Source of the DNA: Microcaldota archaeon
GTDB taxonomy: Archaea > Micrarchaeota > Micrarchaeia > Norongarragalinales > Norongarragalinaceae
Direction of reading: 5' to 3'
DNA length: 64,000 bases
Assembly: GCA_016188965.1 (NCBI GenBank)
Contig: JACPGT010000002.1
Coordinates: 7,461 to 71,460, forward strand
The position numbers were made by a program, and so were the translations under genes. Below, one piece after another: positions 54,545-62,635 of the stretch. The notes beneath the pieces were generated by a model that saw only the letters and a list, made by a program, of their open reading frames with translations, was not told the DNA's origin and ran no database searches. Every line of letters starts with the position of its first letter. Positions within the stretch are counted from its first letter, which is position 1.

Positions 54545-55012
54545 CTATGCGGCCACGATCTGGCCGGTGACCATGCGCATGCTGCAGCCGAAGTCCAAAG
54601 TCTGGCCGGCTTGCATTGCGGGCAGGTCGAACGTCACGGCCTGGCCCTTGGGAAGCGCCGCGCTCTTGCCTAAGCTGTAGAACGAGATGGCGTTGCCGCA
54701 GCCTTCTTCATCGGTGCGGGTGACGGTGAATTTGATGGGCGTTCCGGCTTTGACTTGGACCGGGTCCGGGCTGTAGCGGAAGCCCTCCAGCTTGACGCTC
54801 ACGGCTTGCGCATCGATGCCGGGTGTTTTTGCGGCGGGTTGCAGCACGTCGGACGGTCCGCTGATGATGAACGTGTAGGCCACGGAAAGGCCGACGAGGG
54901 CCATGAACGCGATGACGGCGAAGTACATGGAGTTGTTCGTCTTTTTCGCTTTGCCTTCCGGCGGGCAGTCCTTGCACGCTTCTGGTTGGTCTTGCTGCAT
55001 GTTTTCAGTCAT
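54545..55012 (-). CDS. Membrane-anchored cupredoxin-like protein
   Basis: One TM; FRYSPDPVQVKAGTPIKFTVTRTDEEGCGNAISFYSLGKSAALPKGQAVTFDLPAMQAGQTLDFGCSMRMVTGQI. Confidence 0.78.
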   Translation of the reverse strand: MTENMQQDQPEACKDCPPEGKAKKTNNSMYFAVIAFMALVGLSVAYTFIISGPSDVLQPAAKTPGIDAQAVSVKLEGFRYSPDPVQVKAGTPIKFTVTRTDEEGCGNAISFYSLGKSAALPKGQAVTFDLPAMQAGQTLDFGCSMRMVTGQIVAA

Positions 55013-55145: not shown

Positions 55146-55907
55146 TCAATTCAACGGCAGGTAGGGCGCTAGCAGGTAGGCCGCGGCCAAGGCCAAAATG
55201 GCGGCCGACGCGTTCCGGCTGATGCGGCCGATTTCCGCCGAATGGGGTAGGCTTTTGCGCGCGCCCAATGCCAGGTGGGTCGCGGCGAACATTGCTGTGG
55301 CTGAAACGGCGGTGAAAAGGACGAATGCGGGCAACGTGGCTGCAGGGCCGATGGCCAGTGGCAGTATGAACAACGTCAGCAGCACCGGCGTCGTACAGAA
55401 CGCTCCCGCCACTCCGTAGAAAAACCCGATGGTGAAAAACCCCCGGATTCCGCCGGAGGGCAAGAGGCGGGCCGAGCGCAGGTGTACGCCCAGCGGCACG
55501 TCGAACCACAGCGCGGCGGCCAAGGCGGCCAGGATGATTCCGGCCGGGATCCGGCTGTCGATCAGCAGGCCGGCCAAGGCGGTTCCGAATACCACCAGCG
55601 TGCCGACGGCGACGACGTAAAACGCGGCCAAGCCAGCTGCGGCGGACGCCGCCAACGCGACGTGGGGCCGGTGGCGATCCTGCGCGTTGAGGACCATGCC
55701 GACCATGGCCGGGTACGCCGCCAGGCTGCACGGGTTGAAGAACGCGGTGAGGCCGCCTAAGGCCGCGATCAGCAGGAAAAGACTCGGCGGCAACTGTTCG
55801 ATGGCCAAGCTTCCCCGCGCCACGGCTACCAGTTCCGGGGCGGCGAGAAGGCCGAATGCCAGGATCACGATGAGGGCGGCCAGGTATGCAAGAAATGGTT
55901 TTTTCAT
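55146..55907 (-). CDS. CcdA/DsbD-like transmembrane thiol-disulfide protein
   Basis: GGLTAFFNPCSLAAYPAMVGMVL and GAFCTTPVLLTLF paired membrane Cys; 4-nt overlap with the upstream regulator. Confidence 0.8.
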   Translation of the reverse strand: MKKPFLAYLAALIVILAFGLLAAPELVAVARGSLAIEQLPPSLFLLIAALGGLTAFFNPCSLAAYPAMVGMVLNAQDRHRPHVALAASAAAGLAAFYVVAVGTLVVFGTALAGLLIDSRIPAGIILAALAAALWFDVPLGVHLRSARLLPSGGIRGFFTIGFFYGVAGAFCTTPVLLTLFILPLAIGPAATLPAFVLFTAVSATAMFAATHLALGARKSLPHSAEIGRISRNASAAILALAAAYLLAPYLPLN

Positions 55908-56323
55908 GCGCGTTTGTCCCAGGCTTCGGCGCAGAAATGGCAGCAGAAAAGCTTGCCTTTGTGCGCGTGGGCGTTTTCGAATACCTTGCAGCCGCAGTGG
56001 GCGCAGGTTTTGATTTTGTTGGACAGCGCGGATTCCAGGATGCCGTCGAACTGGCCCAGAAGCACGCCGACTTGGCGGCGTCCCTCCGCCGTCAAGGCAA
56101 AGACGTTCGTGCGGTCGTTCTTCTTGGAATGGATCCATTTTTTCTTTTCCAGTTCACGAAGAAACGGATATACGTGGCTGGCGCTGATTTTCTGATGCAG
56201 CTGCTGGCCCACTTCCTGGATGAGCTGGTAGCCGTGCGCCGGGCTCCGGTTCAACCGAAGCAAAAGCGAGAGGCGTAGCAGGTTGGTGACTTTAAGCGCA
56301 GGGGTATCGGGCGTCGGCGTCAT
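55904..56323 (-). CDS. PadR-like winged-helix regulator with C-terminal Cys-rich metal-binding domain
   Basis: SPAHGYQLIQEVG...SHVYPFLRELEKKKWI wHTH; CAHCGCKVFENAHAHKGKLFCCHFCAEAW tail. Confidence 0.72.
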   Translation of the reverse strand: MTPTPDTPALKVTNLLRLSLLLRLNRSPAHGYQLIQEVGQQLHQKISASHVYPFLRELEKKKWIHSKKNDRTNVFALTAEGRRQVGVLLGQFDGILESALSNKIKTCAHCGCKVFENAHAHKGKLFCCHFCAEAWDKRA

Positions 56324-56334
56324 GTTTTAGGGTT

Positions 56335-57078
56335 TCAGCCCACTTTCTTTTTGGCGCGTTCCAAGTGCACGCGGGTTTTCTGCCGGCCGGCGGCAAAACC
56401 GTCCGCCTTGGCTTCTTCGTCTTGCACCACTTGCTGGGGTGCCGGCAACGCTTGCGGATGCCACGCGTGCAGGAAGATGGACAACGTCTTGAGGGCGTGC
56501 GAGCCTTCGCGGATGTGGCCCAGTTCGTGAAGGAGGACTGCTTCCAGTTGGCGGCGGCTTAACAGTTGGCCCATGCCGATGGATACGAAGATGGCCGGCT
56601 TCAATCCGCCGACCGAGTAGCCTTGGGGTTTGCCTGAATCAATCCAGAAAACGTCGGGCACGCGCATGCCGATGCCTTCCGCTTGGTTGCGGACGTATTG
56701 CTGCAAGGGTCCGTCTTCAGCCAGGCCGCGTTGGCGGTGAAGCAACGGGACAATCCAGAGGCCGGCCAGAAGCGCCAGGAATCCGCTGACGGGGACGACG
56801 ACTAAAAGCGTTTGGGTCACGCCTACTTCACAGATGCCTTTTTCCTGGCAGGAAAGCGTCGCGGCGAAAAGGACCAGGGGTAGGACCAAAAGGACGAGGT
56901 GGCCGTACATCAGGAACGAGCGGGTGCGCGCGGTCCATTCTGTCCTGCGGGACGCCCCGAGCATTGCGATGGCCATCACGAGTGAACCGGTGACGGCGGC
57001 CATGTAATAGGGGTCGGCGAAAAATTGCCCCGCTCCTTGGAATAAGTGCTCCAGCATTCCCCACATGATTTTCGGCAC
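56335..57078 (-). CDS. Membrane metalloprotease (M48/M56 BlaR1-like)
   Basis: TM segments plus AVLLHELGHIREGSHALKT HExxH-type motif; overlaps the BlaI-like stop codon. Confidence 0.8.
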   Translation of the reverse strand: MPKIMWGMLEHLFQGAGQFFADPYYMAAVTGSLVMAIAMLGASRRTEWTARTRSFLMYGHLVLLVLPLVLFAATLSCQEKGICEVGVTQTLLVVVPVSGFLALLAGLWIVPLLHRQRGLAEDGPLQQYVRNQAEGIGMRVPDVFWIDSGKPQGYSVGGLKPAIFVSIGMGQLLSRRQLEAVLLHELGHIREGSHALKTLSIFLHAWHPQALPAPQQVVQDEEAKADGFAAGRQKTRVHLERAKKKVG

Positions 57079-57434
57079 TATATCCGTTTCTGATACTTCT
57101 CGTTAAAATAGCTGATGGCCGACTCCCCGAAGCGCTCGACGATGCGGTCGACGGCGCGCTGCGCCAGGCTTTTGCGGTATTCGTCCTTGGACTGGCGGGC
57201 GGAGTAGATGTACGCGAGGCCCCCGCGGCCCGTGGTAATCGTGCGGCTGACCAATTTGCGCTCGAAAAGGCGGTCCAAAGTCACGGCCACGCTGGTCTGG
57301 GCGCAAGGGTTCTTGCCCTTGATTTTCTGGTAGATGTCACGGACTTTGGACTCCCCGCTTTGCCAAAGCGCTTCCAGGATGGCAGATTCCAGGGGGCTGA
57401 GCGTTTCAGAAACGGCGTCGGTTTGCTTGACCAT
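57078..57434 (-). CDS. BlaI/MecI-family repressor
   Basis: LSPLESAILEALWQSGESKVRDIYQKIKGKNPCAQTSVAVTLDRLFERKLVSRT winged helix. Confidence 0.85.
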   Translation of the reverse strand: MVKQTDAVSETLSPLESAILEALWQSGESKVRDIYQKIKGKNPCAQTSVAVTLDRLFERKLVSRTITTGRGGLAYIYSARQSKDEYRKSLAQRAVDRIVERFGESAISYFNEKYQKRI

Positions 57435-57572: not shown

Positions 57573-58712
57573 ATGAGTCATGGTCTTTCGCGCCCCAAAC
57601 GCGCGCTTTTCGAACTGCTGCCCTTAAGCTTGGCCGCCTTGGTGGTGCTCGTCGCCGTCTTTTCCGTCTGGCAAACCGCTGACGTGAAGGCCGCGTTCCT
57701 CCAAAAGACGGCGCTTGCTACTTCGGCGCCTTTGCCTGCCCTGCGCATCGTCCAACTCGTCAGCACGTTGTGCTCGGAATGCTGGAGTCCGAACGCCTTG
57801 GCCACGGCCCTTGCCGGCCGCTCCAACTCCACTGTCCAGACCGTGGCGGCCCAGACGCCGGAAGGCCAGGAATTGGTCAGGAAATACGGCATCGCCCGCG
57901 CGCCCACGCTGATCGTCACGGGCCAGGTGGACGATTCCCGTCTGGCGGCATCCTTTTCGCAGGGCTGGCGGACGCAGGCGGATGCCCGTATTTTCGTCGG
58001 GCAGGAGCCTGTCTATTTCAACCCGCTGACGTACGAAGTGACCGGCAAGGTCTCTTGGGTGCAGGTCGTGGACCCCGGTTGCGACCAATGTGCGGATTTA
58101 TCCGCACTGGCTGAATCGCTCAAGAAGGCCGGCGTCTATCTTTCGGCGGAGACGGTCGTCAACTCCACGTCATTGCAAGGCGCCGATTTGGTCCGGAAAT
58201 ACCGTCCGGCGTCGCTTCCGTTTCTCGTGCTGTCCAAGGACGCCTCCGCTTATCCAGACATCGTCGAGGCCTGGAAGGGAGTCGGAACCGTCGAGCCGGA
58301 CGGCGCATTCGTCTGGCGCCAAGCCGTTGCGCCGTTTAGGAACACGACGACGGACCGCGTCGTCGGTCTTGTCAGCCTGGTGGAATTGGAGAACCGGTCC
58401 TGCACGGCGTGTTACGACGTATCCATCCACGAGCGGTTGCTGGCAAATCTGGGTCTTGTCGTTTCCAACGTCACGCGTTTGGACGTCGCCAGTGTGCAAG
58501 GCAAGGCCCTGGCCGGTCAGTACAACCTCACGCAGGTGCCGACCGTCCTGATCTCGTCCGACGCCGCGTTCTATCCGTCGTTCATGCAGGTCTGGCCGCA
58601 AGTCGGAACGCGCGAAGCTGACGGCCGTTTCGTTTTCCGCAACCTGGCCGCTTTGCCGAACGCGACGGTGGCCAATGTTTCGGCCGGAAGCGCCGGGGGC
58701 GTGCCCGCGTAG
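57573..58712 (+). CDS. Membrane-anchored protein with three thioredoxin-like repeats
   Basis: N-terminal TM; three repeats with CSEC, CDQC, CTAC followed by VRKYxxxxxPTLI-type segments. Confidence 0.72.
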   Translation: MSHGLSRPKRALFELLPLSLAALVVLVAVFSVWQTADVKAAFLQKTALATSAPLPALRIVQLVSTLCSECWSPNALATALAGRSNSTVQTVAAQTPEGQELVRKYGIARAPTLIVTGQVDDSRLAASFSQGWRTQADARIFVGQEPVYFNPLTYEVTGKVSWVQVVDPGCDQCADLSALAESLKKAGVYLSAETVVNSTSLQGADLVRKYRPASLPFLVLSKDASAYPDIVEAWKGVGTVEPDGAFVWRQAVAPFRNTTTDRVVGLVSLVELENRSCTACYDVSIHERLLANLGLVVSNVTRLDVASVQGKALAGQYNLTQVPTVLISSDAAFYPSFMQVWPQVGTREADGRFVFRNLAALPNATVANVSAGSAGGVPA

Positions 58713-58781: not shown

Positions 58782-59588
58782 GTGTTGAATTTGAAGGAAC
58801 ATCCGCACGCGCATTCCCCTGCCGGGCATCCTGAACATCCGGCGCACCCGGTCCAAGCATCCGTCCGTCCTGGTTCAGATGATACTCCCAAGCCGGCATG
58901 GGTCTTGTTCGCCTTGCTGGCTCTGGTCGTCGCCGTGACGGCCTACAACCAACTCCAAATCACCGACGTGCAGTACGCCATGGCGGGCTATTCGACCGCC
59001 GCGGCTCGTCCGGCCGTTTCCGCACCCGGCGGAGCGCCGCAGGGAAGCTCTTCCGCAAACCTGCAGGCGCTGGCTGACCGCATTCTTCCCAAAGGCATTC
59101 CGGCCGTCTACGGAAAGGAATTGTCCGTGTCGTACGACGACCCGGTGGCGGCCATGAAGGTCCTGGCGCCTTTGGATGACGGAATCCAATTATCGGCCGA
59201 ACAGAACGCGCGCTACGTCAAGATTGCGTCGCAAATTTCGTGCGAGTACTGCTGCGGTGCCGAGTCGATCATCTTTGCCAACGGCCAGGCCGCTTGCGGA
59301 TGCCAGCACTCGTACGTCATGCGCGGACTTGCCAAGTACCTGCTGACCAAGCACGGCACCGAGTACACGAACGACCAGGTCTTGGACGAATTGGGCAAGT
59401 GGAAGACGCTGTTCTTCCCCAAGCAAATCCTGACGAAGGCCTTGGCGTTCGAGTCGGCAGGCAAGGCCATCAATACCATCGATTTGACGTCGAACAAGTA
59501 CCGCGGTTTCACGGCCGCGGCCGCCAGCGCGGGTTCAGGCTCGGCGCAAGGCGTGGCGTCTTTGCCGAACATGGTCGGCGGTTGTTAA
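58782..59588 (+). CDS. Membrane-anchored Cys-rich (PCYCGC-like) protein with C-terminal LPNMVGGC
   Basis: TM near N-terminus; QISCEYCCGAESIIFANGQAACGCQHSYVMRGLAKYLL; ends ASLPNMVGGC*. Confidence 0.75.
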   Translation: MLNLKEHPHAHSPAGHPEHPAHPVQASVRPGSDDTPKPAWVLFALLALVVAVTAYNQLQITDVQYAMAGYSTAAARPAVSAPGGAPQGSSSANLQALADRILPKGIPAVYGKELSVSYDDPVAAMKVLAPLDDGIQLSAEQNARYVKIASQISCEYCCGAESIIFANGQAACGCQHSYVMRGLAKYLLTKHGTEYTNDQVLDELGKWKTLFFPKQILTKALAFESAGKAINTIDLTSNKYRGFTAAAASAGSGSAQGVASLPNMVGGC

Positions 59589-59614
59589 GCGCGAACGGAG
59601 GATTGGAAAAAAAC

Positions 59615-59788
59615 ATGCAACGATGCCAGAACTGCCAAAAACCGTACCTGTCCTGTTGCGGCGATACCAGCGCGTATTGTTTCGAGTGCGAGCCGCGCCA
59701 AAAAGGCACGTGCGCCATCGAGGCGCCGAAAGCCGCCCCATCCCAACCCGTTGAAAAGAAAACCAAAGGAGGTCGTTCTCATGGATAA
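59615..59788 (+). CDS. Small Cys-rich (zinc-ribbon-like) protein
   Basis: MQRCQNCQKPYLSCCGDTSAYCFECEPRQKGTCAIE; overlaps the next start. Confidence 0.6.
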   Translation: MQRCQNCQKPYLSCCGDTSAYCFECEPRQKGTCAIEAPKAAPSQPVEKKTKGGRSHG

Positions 59789-60065
59789 GTTCGTCGTATT
59801 GTCGGCCCTGTTGGGCATCTTGCTGGTCACGTCGGTGTTCCAGGCGTTCGAGCTGAACGGCCTCAAGAACCAACTGACGGCCAAGACTGGAGCCGTATCG
59901 TTCGCATCGGCGCCTGCGCAGCCCGCTTCCAGCGGAGGTGCGGAGTCGTACGAGCAGATGATGCAACGGATGCATCCGGACCAGTTCGCCCAACAACAGG
60001 CCGCCAGCGCGGCCGTTGGCGACGGCGCGTTGAACGGCCTGCCGAACATGGTCGGAGGTTGTTAA
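59781..60065 (+). CDS. Single-TM protein with C-terminal LPNMVGGC
   Basis: MDKFVVLSALLGILLVTSVFQAFELNGLKNQL...GLPNMVGGC*; strong SD aaaggagg. Confidence 0.78.
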   Translation: MDKFVVLSALLGILLVTSVFQAFELNGLKNQLTAKTGAVSFASAPAQPASSGGAESYEQMMQRMHPDQFAQQQAASAAVGDGALNGLPNMVGGC

Positions 60066-60174
60066 ACGCATCCGATTGACGATGGCGCCGTGCGCCCCCA
60101 AGGCGGCATTCGAAAAACCTCCCTCGAGCCGCTTTGGGGCCACGGATGCCTTTTACGACGTGAGGCGAAAAATC

Positions 60175-60378
60175 ATGGATGACTGGATGATTTTGAGCGC
60201 ATTGCTGGCCGTATTGCTGCTGGCATCCGCGTTCCAAGCATTCGAATTGGCCGGACTCAAGGACGGCATGGCGCGGATCCAAGCGCCGTCGGCCGTCCTA
60301 CAGCCGGCGGCCGCGCCGGCGCAATCCCCTTCGGCCGGCGGTTTGAGTGGCTTGCCGAACATGGTCGGCGGTTGTTGA
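60175..60378 (+). CDS. Single-TM protein with C-terminal LPNMVGGC (paralogue)
   Basis: MDDWMILSALLAVLLLASAFQAFELAGLKDGM...GLPNMVGGC*. Confidence 0.75.
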   Translation: MDDWMILSALLAVLLLASAFQAFELAGLKDGMARIQAPSAVLQPAAAPAQSPSAGGLSGLPNMVGGC

Positions 60379-60396
60379 GAGCAGGAGTTGAGCGAC

Positions 60397-60975
60397 ATGG
60401 ATGTCTACCCGAAGGTCTGGCTGTTGTTGGCCGTATTGTTGTTGCCGCTGGCAACGGCTGCGTCGCCGCGCGTGCTGGTGTACAAGAACGACGCGTGCAG
60501 CCACTGCGGGCCGTACTTGAAGGACTTTTTTTCCTTGTTGGATAAAAATGGCGTCACGGCCGACCAGATCGTGGTCAAGGACTACTTGAACAACGCCGAT
60601 TCGCGGCGCGAAGTCGCCGAACTGCAAAGCCGTTTCGGCGTGCCGCTGGACATGCAGGGCCACATGCTGGCCATCCTCGACGGCGTCTACGTCTTGGAAG
60701 GCCACGTGCCGCTTTCCGTCGTGCAGGGGTATCTGGACGCGCCCAAGCCCGCCCAACCGGTCATCGTGTACCAGGATTCGATGCAGCCCGACGTGCGCTC
60801 CTATGCCGTGTTATACGATGGCAAGCGCCAGGTCTATGCCCTCGACGGGCAGGCCGCCCCGGTTTCGGCGCAGGATTACTCGAAATACGTCATCCCGGCC
60901 GTCCTCATCGGCGCCACCGGAATCCTGTTGTACCTGGGCCTGAAAAAAGGGCCGGCCCGTGAGGCCCGACCGTAG
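60397..60975 (+). CDS. Secreted/membrane thioredoxin-like protein
   Basis: Signal peptide, VLVYKNDACSHCGPYLKDFFSLL CxxC motif, C-terminal TM. Confidence 0.72.
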   Translation: MDVYPKVWLLLAVLLLPLATAASPRVLVYKNDACSHCGPYLKDFFSLLDKNGVTADQIVVKDYLNNADSRREVAELQSRFGVPLDMQGHMLAILDGVYVLEGHVPLSVVQGYLDAPKPAQPVIVYQDSMQPDVRSYAVLYDGKRQVYALDGQAAPVSAQDYSKYVIPAVLIGATGILLYLGLKKGPAREARP

Positions 60976-61006: not shown

Positions 61007-61684
61007 ATGGTTGATTTCTGGGAACTGGCCGCTTTGGTGAGTTCGTCGGGCTTTCTCGACGGCATCCACCCCTGCGGTTTCGCGGTGTTATTGTTCTTCA
61101 TCGCCTTTCTGCTGTCCATCCAGCGCTCGCGTACCCACATCCTGCTCATGGGCGGCGCCTACATCGCCGGCGTCTTCCTGACGTATTTTCTCATCGGCTT
61201 GGGCATCCTCAAGGCCGTCTCTTTCTTCCCCGGCCACTTCTTCGCCATCGCCGGCTCCTCGCTTTTGGTCCTCATCGGCCTGATCAGCATCGCGGACGGC
61301 ATCCGCGGCACCGAGACGCTGGTCATCCCCAAAATCAGCAAGCCATGGATCAACGACGCCATCCAGAAAGCCACGTTGCCTGCCGCACTCGTCGCCGGCC
61401 TGCTGGTGGGACTTTGCGCGTTTCCCTGCGCTGGCGGCATTTACTTAGCCGTCCTGGGCTTCCTGACCGTTTCGACGACATTCTGGGAAGGCGTCGGCTT
61501 CCTGGTGCTGTACAACGTCTTTTTCGTCATGCCGCTGATTCTGACGTTGCTGTTCGCTTCGAACGAAACGGTCCTTGAAAAGCTGGAGTCGCTGGAGACG
61601 CGCAACCGCAGGAACTTCAAGTTCATCCTCGGCTTCTTGGCCATCGCGTTGGCGTCGTTCATCCTGTATTCGGTGATGAAGTGA
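61007..61684 (+). CDS. CcdA-like transmembrane thiol-disulfide protein
   Basis: GFLDGIHPCGFAVLLFFIAFLLS and GLLVGLCAFPCAGGIYLAVLGFL. Confidence 0.85.
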   Translation: MVDFWELAALVSSSGFLDGIHPCGFAVLLFFIAFLLSIQRSRTHILLMGGAYIAGVFLTYFLIGLGILKAVSFFPGHFFAIAGSSLLVLIGLISIADGIRGTETLVIPKISKPWINDAIQKATLPAALVAGLLVGLCAFPCAGGIYLAVLGFLTVSTTFWEGVGFLVLYNVFFVMPLILTLLFASNETVLEKLESLETRNRRNFKFILGFLAIALASFILYSVMK

Positions 61685-62322
61685 AAAAAGAACGCGACGC
61701 CGCCCGTAAACGGAAGTCTTTTGTTGCTGCTGACGCCGGTTGGCTGACCCGGTTCAAAGCCGGCATCTTGGGCTACTTGGAACAACACGACCTTTTGGCC
61801 GGCGTATTGGCCGCCGCCGTCCTTCCGGTTTTCTACCTGTTGCTGCTGACGGCGCTTAACGGCTTCGGGCATGCCGTTCGCCAGATCGCATCGCTTTCAG
61901 GCTGGATGACGTTGCTTTCCGCCGGTTTGGGCCTGCAGGTCCAGCTCTACTTCCGGCTGCGTCGGCTGCACCGGCTTGCCAATCCGAACGCCGTGGCCGC
62001 TTCGGGCGGAGCGTCCGCGTTTTCCATGGCGGCTTGCTGCGCCCACCACGCCGCCGACGTGCTGCCGGCCTTCGGTCTTGCCGCTGCCGCGTCGTTTCTG
62101 TCCTACTACCAGGATAGCTTCCTGCTCTTGGGCGTGTTGAGCAACGTAGGCGGCCTTTGGTACATGTTGTCCTGCTACCAGGATTCGCGCCTCAAGACGG
62201 CAGGCTTTCTGGATGCCTTCATGGCGTTTCCCCTGAAGCGTTGGCTTCCGTTTTACGTCGTTTCGGCCGCGGCCTTGTTCGTCGCGTATACGGCGTCGCT
62301 TGGGTTCAAAGCAATGCGTTGA
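61681..62322 (+). CDS. Polytopic membrane protein with Cys/His intramembrane motif
   Basis: FSMAACCAHHAADVLPAFGLAAAASFLSYYQDSFLLLGVLSN; 4-nt overlap with the ccdA-like gene. Confidence 0.6.
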   Translation: MKKERDAARKRKSFVAADAGWLTRFKAGILGYLEQHDLLAGVLAAAVLPVFYLLLLTALNGFGHAVRQIASLSGWMTLLSAGLGLQVQLYFRLRRLHRLANPNAVAASGGASAFSMAACCAHHAADVLPAFGLAAAASFLSYYQDSFLLLGVLSNVGGLWYMLSCYQDSRLKTAGFLDAFMAFPLKRWLPFYVVSAAALFVAYTASLGFKAMR

Positions 62323-62332
62323 GGTGGTCGTA

Positions 62333-62635
62333 ATGAAATATCTGGAGTATGCCGTGGTGTTCGGAGTCGTCCTGGTCTTGGCGTTCGCGTTCCTGGTGTA
62401 TCGTCCCGCCGGTTCACAGACGGGTCCGGGTAGTTTGGTTCCCAACGGACAGAATTTCCAGTATTACCAGCAGAAAGCCGCGGCGCTGGGCAATGAATGC
62501 GGCGACTTGAAGGACGAAGGCAACGTGCAGCACTTGTCGCACCACCCCGAACGCTACGCCGCGTGCCTCAAACAAGTCGAGCCGGTATTCCTACAGCAAG
62601 CCACGGGCAAGACGCTGCAACAGCTACTTGGGTAA
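62333..62635 (+). CDS. Small membrane-anchored protein
   Basis: N-terminal TM; NECGDLKDEGNVQHLSHHPERYAACLKQVEPVF. Confidence 0.55.
   Translation: MKYLEYAVVFGVVLVLAFAFLVYRPAGSQTGPGSLVPNGQNFQYYQQKAAALGNECGDLKDEGNVQHLSHHPERYAACLKQVEPVFLQQATGKTLQQLLG

Follow-up and report, generated by a model that had tools for sequence, protein, structure and literature searches.

A co-changing C-terminal cysteine peptide on membrane-anchored proteins encoded in gene clusters of DPANN archaea

The tagged gene cluster and its neighbours

The window analysed here, a 64,000-nucleotide stretch of the genome of a Microcaldota archaeon, contains three forward-strand genes, at 58782–59588, 59781–60065 and 60175–60378, whose translations all terminate in LPNMVGGC followed directly by the stop codon. 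The tags are encoded at 59562–59585, 60039–60062 and 60352–60375, respectively, and a search of the whole 1.37 Mb genome recovered exactly these three copies of the PNMVGGC-stop pattern, all in this cluster (the reversed-pattern control gave 0), bearing out the initial annotation, in which the common end of the three proteins had been pointed out. The first product, P1 (268 aa), consists of a His/Pro-rich N-terminal tail, one transmembrane (TM) segment (residues ~38–60), a Cys-rich domain (~82–242), an Ala/Ser/Gly linker and the tag. The N-terminal TM segment attributed to P1 is indeed present, with the refinement that the tail of ~37 residues stands before the helix; the folded domain, with its CEYCCG (154–159) and ACGCQHS (ACGCQH, 171–176) motifs, had gone unmentioned. 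The second product (94 aa) is a small protein with an N-in signal anchor and a linker carrying a YEQMMQRMHPDQ motif, and the third (67 aa) combines a signal anchor with an Ala/Pro/Ser linker; the LSALL...AFEL(N/A)GLK(N/D) similarity noted earlier between these two small proteins is confirmed. Between P1 and the first small protein lies a forward-strand gene (59615–59788) for a Cys-rich protein of 57 aa, MQRCQNCQKPYLSCCGD..., with a CxxC...CC...CxxC pattern and counterparts in related Micrarchaeota loci (the family is found in 8 loci).

Downstream of the tagged genes and on the same strand, 60388–60975 encodes a divergent DUF411/CopG-like thioredoxin-fold protein, exported and with a C-terminal TM segment, which carries CSHC and GHM...EGHVP motifs and aligns with true CopG homologues. 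Its similarity to PF04214 is below the cut-off (16.2 bits against 27), its match to the CopG structure 6WIS is weak (E 0.075), and the CxCC copper motif of CopG/DUF411 proteins is absent, CSHC standing in its place; the counterparts at three other loci (L025, L027 and L028) have CGCC. This gene is followed by those for a CcdA/DsbD-type membrane thiol transporter (61007–61684, +; HPCGFA and CAFPCAGG motifs, weak DsbD_TM/SfLAP/DsbD matches) and two conserved neighbours, namely, a multi-TM protein with an SMAACCAHH motif (61681–62322, +) and a small anchored protein with a CGDL...LSHHP...C motif (62300–62635, +). Upstream, a membrane-anchored thioredoxin-like protein with three CxxC motifs (CSEC, CDQC and CTAC; 57573–58712, +) matches PF13192 above the cut-off. 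On the reverse strand, the neighbourhood includes a BlaI/CopY-type repressor (57078–57434; PF03965) paired with an M48/M56-type membrane metalloprotease (56335–57078), a PadR-type regulator with a C-terminal Cys-rich, metal-sensor-like segment (CAHCGCKVF...CCHFC; 55904–56323) and a membrane-anchored cupredoxin (54545–55012; PF13473). DUF302 is also represented in the cluster, and genes for an HMA protein and a heavy-metal ATPase are located just outside the window.

Distribution, sequence constraint and genomic context of the tag

Homologues of P1 are encoded in 17 of the 296 genomes of the same phylum and at 23 loci belonging to Micrarchaeota, Woesearchaeota, Pacearchaeota, Aenigmatarchaeota and Diapherotrites. 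Among the 37 complete homologues in these sets, which were assembled by homology and cover several DPANN groups, 32 end in [MQ]VGGC; two others end in QIGGCS or QIGGCG, one in TLGGC, and the remaining two are untagged, each with a tagged small protein encoded next downstream. The MVGGC-stop pattern itself gave 24 matches in 11 of the 296 own-phylum genomes (control, 1); a single match, in an rpl12 leader of genome G003, falls outside the P1 clusters. In the phylum of the Woesearchaeota genome that contains L025, 76 of 284 genomes have matches (control, 3), nearly all of them close tandem pairs, and in the 60 loci of this phylum that were read in detail, the tagged open reading frames (ORFs) encode either P1 homologues or single-TM proteins of ~50–110 aa. 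Across the 580 genomes, the matches fall, where checked, almost entirely within clusters of P1 and small-protein genes. The tag is beyond chance and is not confined to the genome of the window: the C-terminal motif search in archaeal genomes that had been suggested as a check found it conserved in relatives, clustered, and co-occurring with genes for CcdA and thioredoxin-fold proteins. Degenerate tags were also observed, namely, an MVGGHK... read-through in a small protein (L139:6683–6964) and MVGAC in a P1 homologue (L120:6997–7647).

The small proteins have almost nothing in common besides the signal anchor and the tag, and in an alignment of 29 of them, only the V, G, G and C columns are invariant. 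The final five residues hardly vary among 184 tagged ORFs, as they must, these residues having served to select the ORFs; P is favoured at position −7, and the linker is not conserved. Coupling of the tags is evident in 94 pairs of P1 and a small protein from the same locus: residue −5 is M in both partners in 87 pairs, Q in both in 7, and never mixed. Likewise, an extra residue after the tag Cys is found on both proteins in two loci, each in a different genome, and never on one alone, and the presence of P at −7 agrees in 81 of the 94 pairs. Because the switch between M and Q maps to at least three independent events on the P1 tree, the tags of the partners have changed together repeatedly. 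Matched codons differ synonymously in 254 of 446 cases, indicating constraint on the protein rather than a copied DNA repeat and corroborating the initial view of a functional tag; with the linkers diverging as well, chance or a DNA-level repeat was rejected as the origin of the tag.

In all 104 small proteins considered, the tag Cys is the sole Cys of the exported part. Positive charges (K/R) around the TM segment are heavier on the N-terminal side in 77 small proteins and on the opposite side in 7, so that an N-in/C-out orientation is predicted, which would place the tag outside the cell on a flexible tether.

The genes surrounding the tag recur as well. At least one gene for a triple-thioredoxin, DUF411, CcdA-like or CPLC-type protein was present in the stretch read in 81 of 86 loci, and in 71 of 85, the three genes following the tagged ones on the same strand include a thioredoxin-fold, CopG, CcdA-like or CPLC-type gene, the first such gene most often coding for CopG/DUF411 (23 loci) or a triple-thioredoxin (20); these counts are descriptive, with many of the loci chosen by the tag itself, stretches ending at contig ends and no formal background. 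The link between the tag and the CcdA/thioredoxin-fold genes, previously proposed from the window, is evident in both counts. In L025, the DUF411 protein whose gene adjoins the tagged ones gives a match to structure 6WIS of CopG at 5.9e-26, and in two loci (L147:6726–7922 and L042:8552–9781), a CopG-like thioredoxin domain is fused to CcdA, the counterparts in the window being two neighbouring genes. Rhodanese-family genes are present in 14 loci. A clade of 30 rows in the P1 tree has mainly thioredoxin and Grx neighbours, and the clusters of this thioredoxin clade contain fewer recognisable copper genes.

The P1 domain, its bacterial relatives and separation from the tag

In P1 homologues, C154, C157, C158, C172, C174 and H176 are invariant. 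AlphaFold2 models the domain as helical, with pLDDT above 90 over most of residues 82–242 and likewise in a distant member, and a Foldseek comparison of two models with the PDB returned no match to a solved fold (best E values of 0.37 and 3.2). Searches of Pfam, NCBIfam and PDB sequences assigned P1, its homologues and the small proteins to no known family, and the earlier statement that the motif proteins belong to no named family holds for these libraries. PCYCGC (PF13798) gave no match in four tag-bearing genomes, and none in the controls either. The tag itself has a pLDDT of ~79 in the P0001 model and of 32–42, i.e., disordered, in a second one; docking of the tag onto the P1 domain in cis, hinted at in the former and not in the latter, was set aside.

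A divergent archaeal relative in L162 aligns with the P1 domain (hhalign probability 97, E 1.7e-11) and, through it, the domain connects to bacterial proteins annotated as hypothetical (WP_115422038 and WP_218685996); a direct plasmid search with P0001 yielded nothing, the bacterial relatives being reached solely via L162. The bacterial genes lie directly 3′ of CcdA in DsbE-TlpA-DsbA-CcdA operons, accompanied by genes for SCO, DUF1573, DUF411, multicopper oxidase, PCu(A)C, CusA or a heavy-metal P-type ATPase; a fourth case has DsbA, SCO and TlpA genes nearby and lacks CcdA. None of the bacterial relatives carries the tag, suggesting that the domain can work without it. On two Sinorhizobium plasmids (L174 and L175), a gene of the isoprenylcysteine carboxylmethyltransferase (ICMT) family is found directly 3′ of the P1-like gene.

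Tag and domain come apart in archaea, too. In five loci (L035, L114, L115, L117 and L124), the P1 homologue is untagged while its small neighbour keeps the tag, and five others (L025, L118, L121, L122 and L125) encode an untagged P1 paralogue, in several cases as a fusion with a CPxC-containing multi-TM domain (L025:79–1317, L121, L122 and L125). Free-standing CPxC membrane proteins are encoded in many other loci, one of them (L042:9943–10386) with a weak match to MerT. Furthermore, operons of the thioredoxin-type clusters include a small lipobox lipoprotein with a [VIA]GGGC motif, located at or at most two residues from the C-terminus in L126:6259–6417, L127:1139–1291 and L128:6206–6325, and internal, followed by a variable tail, in L116, L117, L122, L163, L164, L172 and L173; these lipoproteins are possibly a lipid-anchored version of the same arm. 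Given the untagged P1 proteins with tagged neighbours and the GGGC lipoproteins, the arm can apparently function when separate from the P1 domain. A mobile module, W(T/S)xNExMNYEMHGxxPAR, occurs in small tagged proteins (L025:6599–6898, L039, L041, L123, L138, L146, L147 and L173) or inside P1 (L032–L034), with other proteins carrying ETYEQMMARMHPDQ instead; both modules resemble Met/His motifs.

A putative thiol arm, its alternatives and known systems

The reading that we favour, and to which we give an even chance, is that (M/Q)VGGC is an extracytoplasmic, membrane-tethered single-thiol arm displayed by several carriers and coupled to CcdA and thioredoxins, with Cu(I) as its most likely cargo. 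The carriers would be held in the membrane by the N-terminal signal anchor with the C-terminus outside, an orientation deduced from the charge bias, and the flexible Ala/Ser/Pro linker would offer one Cys, preceded by two Gly residues, to common extracytoplasmic partners. Among these, the folded P1 domain (CxxCCG...CGCxH) is a probable acceptor or donor of metal or thiol, whereas the CcdA-like transporters and the triple-thioredoxin, CopG/DUF411-like and Grx-like proteins might maintain the arm thiols in the reduced state or undergo exchange with them. Cu(I) could then be handed from thiol to thiol, either for detoxification or for the loading of cuproproteins. The action of the arm, its cargo and the direction of transfer are what we infer from the computed features set out above. 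Copper appears to be the likeliest cargo given that genes for CopG, copper ATPase and cupredoxin accompany the tag: CopG uses CxCC to bind a tetranuclear copper cluster and has a part in copper resistance (PMC7558416), and in the Scs (suppressor of copper sensitivity) system, Cu(I)-binding thioredoxin-fold proteins are subject to DsbD-type reduction (PMC8900818). Met at −5 can be replaced by Gln, so the tag does not constitute an invariant Met-Cys site for copper. In the thioredoxin-clade clusters, poor in copper genes as they are, the cargo may differ. A broader and more tentative proposal, for which we see roughly one chance in three at best, is that (M/Q)VGGC acts in trans as a currency common to several unrelated tethered proteins, whether signal-anchored, domain-bearing or, perhaps, attached by a lipid, and that a single partner, perhaps the P1 domain, recognises all of them; in these cells with their very small genomes, the peptide would form a thiol buffer at the surface, taking the place of soluble chaperones or of diffusible low-molecular-weight thiols, and the whole would be a new category of extracytoplasmic carrier system.

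Of the alternatives, the one that survives best, although it seems unlikely, casts the tag as a sulfane-sulfur carrier, with the terminal Cys bearing a persulfide or sulfur intermediate that is loaded by a rhodanese lipoprotein and reduced by CcdA and thioredoxin. A single exported thiol, Gly-flanked on a flexible C-terminal arm, with CcdA and extracytoplasmic thioredoxins as neighbours, would suit such a role, and the 14 loci with rhodanese-family genes would be compatible with sulfur transfer, too. There is also a precedent: SoxYZ carries intermediates on the Cys of a swinging arm (PMC5336275), and the title of a reference cited in PMC10451225 describes SoxV as an orthologue of CcdA by which the thioredoxin SoxW is reduced. 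However, rhodanese genes are found in a minority of the loci, Sox enzymes are missing from the neighbour families, and copper-linked genes are the commoner specific context. The latter context, with CopG proper, metal regulators, cupredoxin and copper-ATPase genes recurring near the clusters, weighs also against the next alternative, a likewise unlikely one, in which the tag would carry no metal and would shuttle electrons or disulfides between the P1 domain and thioredoxins driven by CcdA. This purely redox wiring would account for 81 of 86 loci having thioredoxin-fold, CcdA-type or CPLC-type genes, for the thioredoxin/Grx neighbours of the 30-row clade and for the two fusions of CcdA with a DUF411-like thioredoxin domain, but a disulfide relay normally uses a Cys pair, and a monothiol arm alone would be unusual. 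Very unlikely, in our estimation, is a docking or assembly peptide that assembles the anchored proteins on a single partner, perhaps with an intermolecular disulfide as a lock: the identity of the tag within a genome, its concerted switches and its modelled confidence of ~79 in P0001 would agree with docking, yet the tag is disordered in the second model, and a universal Cys is better explained by chemistry. Least credible of all is a processing or lipidation signal, with the Cys prenylated, carboxyl-methylated or cleaved off by a dedicated enzyme, as the strictly C-terminal position in almost all proteins and the likeness of Gly-Gly-Cys to Rab C-termini might suggest, considering that the carriers are already membrane-anchored, that in two genomes the Cys of both proteins is followed by one further residue, that an ICMT homologue was not found in 8 of 12 tag-bearing genomes, the window genome included (prenyltransferase matches numbered 0 in the same 12, with a control that gave none anywhere either), that no hydrophobic helix or basic tail of the sortase type follows the motif, and that no candidate processing enzyme is universally linked to it. 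Thus, of the two roles entertained in the initial annotation, C-terminal processing or Cys lipidation is not borne out, whereas the Cys as a carrier of thiols, metals or mixed disulfides survives, now with a copper context provided by the CopG/DUF411 neighbours and the bacterial copper operons.

The components around it belong to known types, whereas the Cys peptide at the C-terminus, shared by several proteins and changing in step, is, as far as our tools reach, undescribed in the literature and libraries searched, and no paper in that literature describes the (M/Q)VGGC motif in this sense. Roughly one in four of the sampled genomes of one DPANN phylum encode the tag, which is also present in several further DPANN groups, and a co-changing Cys peptide on unrelated anchored proteins offers a clean handle on copper and thiol handling outside the membrane of gene-poor archaea. 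The P1 domain adds a fold without a PDB match that has a bacterial counterpart in plasmid copper operons.

Comparison with characterised systems sets the tag apart from several of them. Sortase and archaeosortase signals have a hydrophobic helix and basic residues after the motif, whereas no more than one residue follows the motif in the tagged proteins. The ubiquitin-like sulfur carriers of the ThiS, MoaD and QbsE type are cytosolic beta-grasp proteins in which GG is followed by residues that can be removed; by contrast, the small tagged proteins consist of a TM segment and a low-complexity linker, and the model of P1 is helical, with no PDB match to a beta-grasp of this type. CopG/DUF411 (6WIS) is a neighbour rather than the tagged family, its true homologues adjoining tagged genes in many loci. 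Scs and CueP share with the tag system extracytoplasmic thioredoxin-fold proteins, linked to Cu(I) tolerance, whose reduced state is maintained by a DsbD/CcdA-type transporter (PMC8900818), but involve a different set of proteins, in which no tag or P1 domain is known. Related by homology is the WP_115422038/WP_218685996 family (CCCQCWRW...GLAKYLI...DGCGG), with a homologous domain encoded directly after CcdA in thioredoxin/copper operons; it has an extra N-terminal SCC...H region and lacks both MVGGC and recognised small tagged partners. Similar in design is SoxY with SoxV/SoxW, which likewise combines a flexible C-terminal arm, located outside the membrane and bearing one Cys flanked by Gly, with a CcdA-type transporter and thioredoxins. 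The arm motif of SoxY is GGCGG, from which the VGGC(x) terminus differs, while being equally a Gly-flanked Cys arm. Unlike SoxY, the tag system has no SoxZ partner, is membrane-anchored, places one tag on several unrelated carriers and resides in a copper-type neighbourhood, and Pfam detects no SoxY or SoxZ domain in P1, its homologues or the small proteins. By analogy, then, the best reading is that the tag system would resemble the swinging arm of SoxY without being SoxY.
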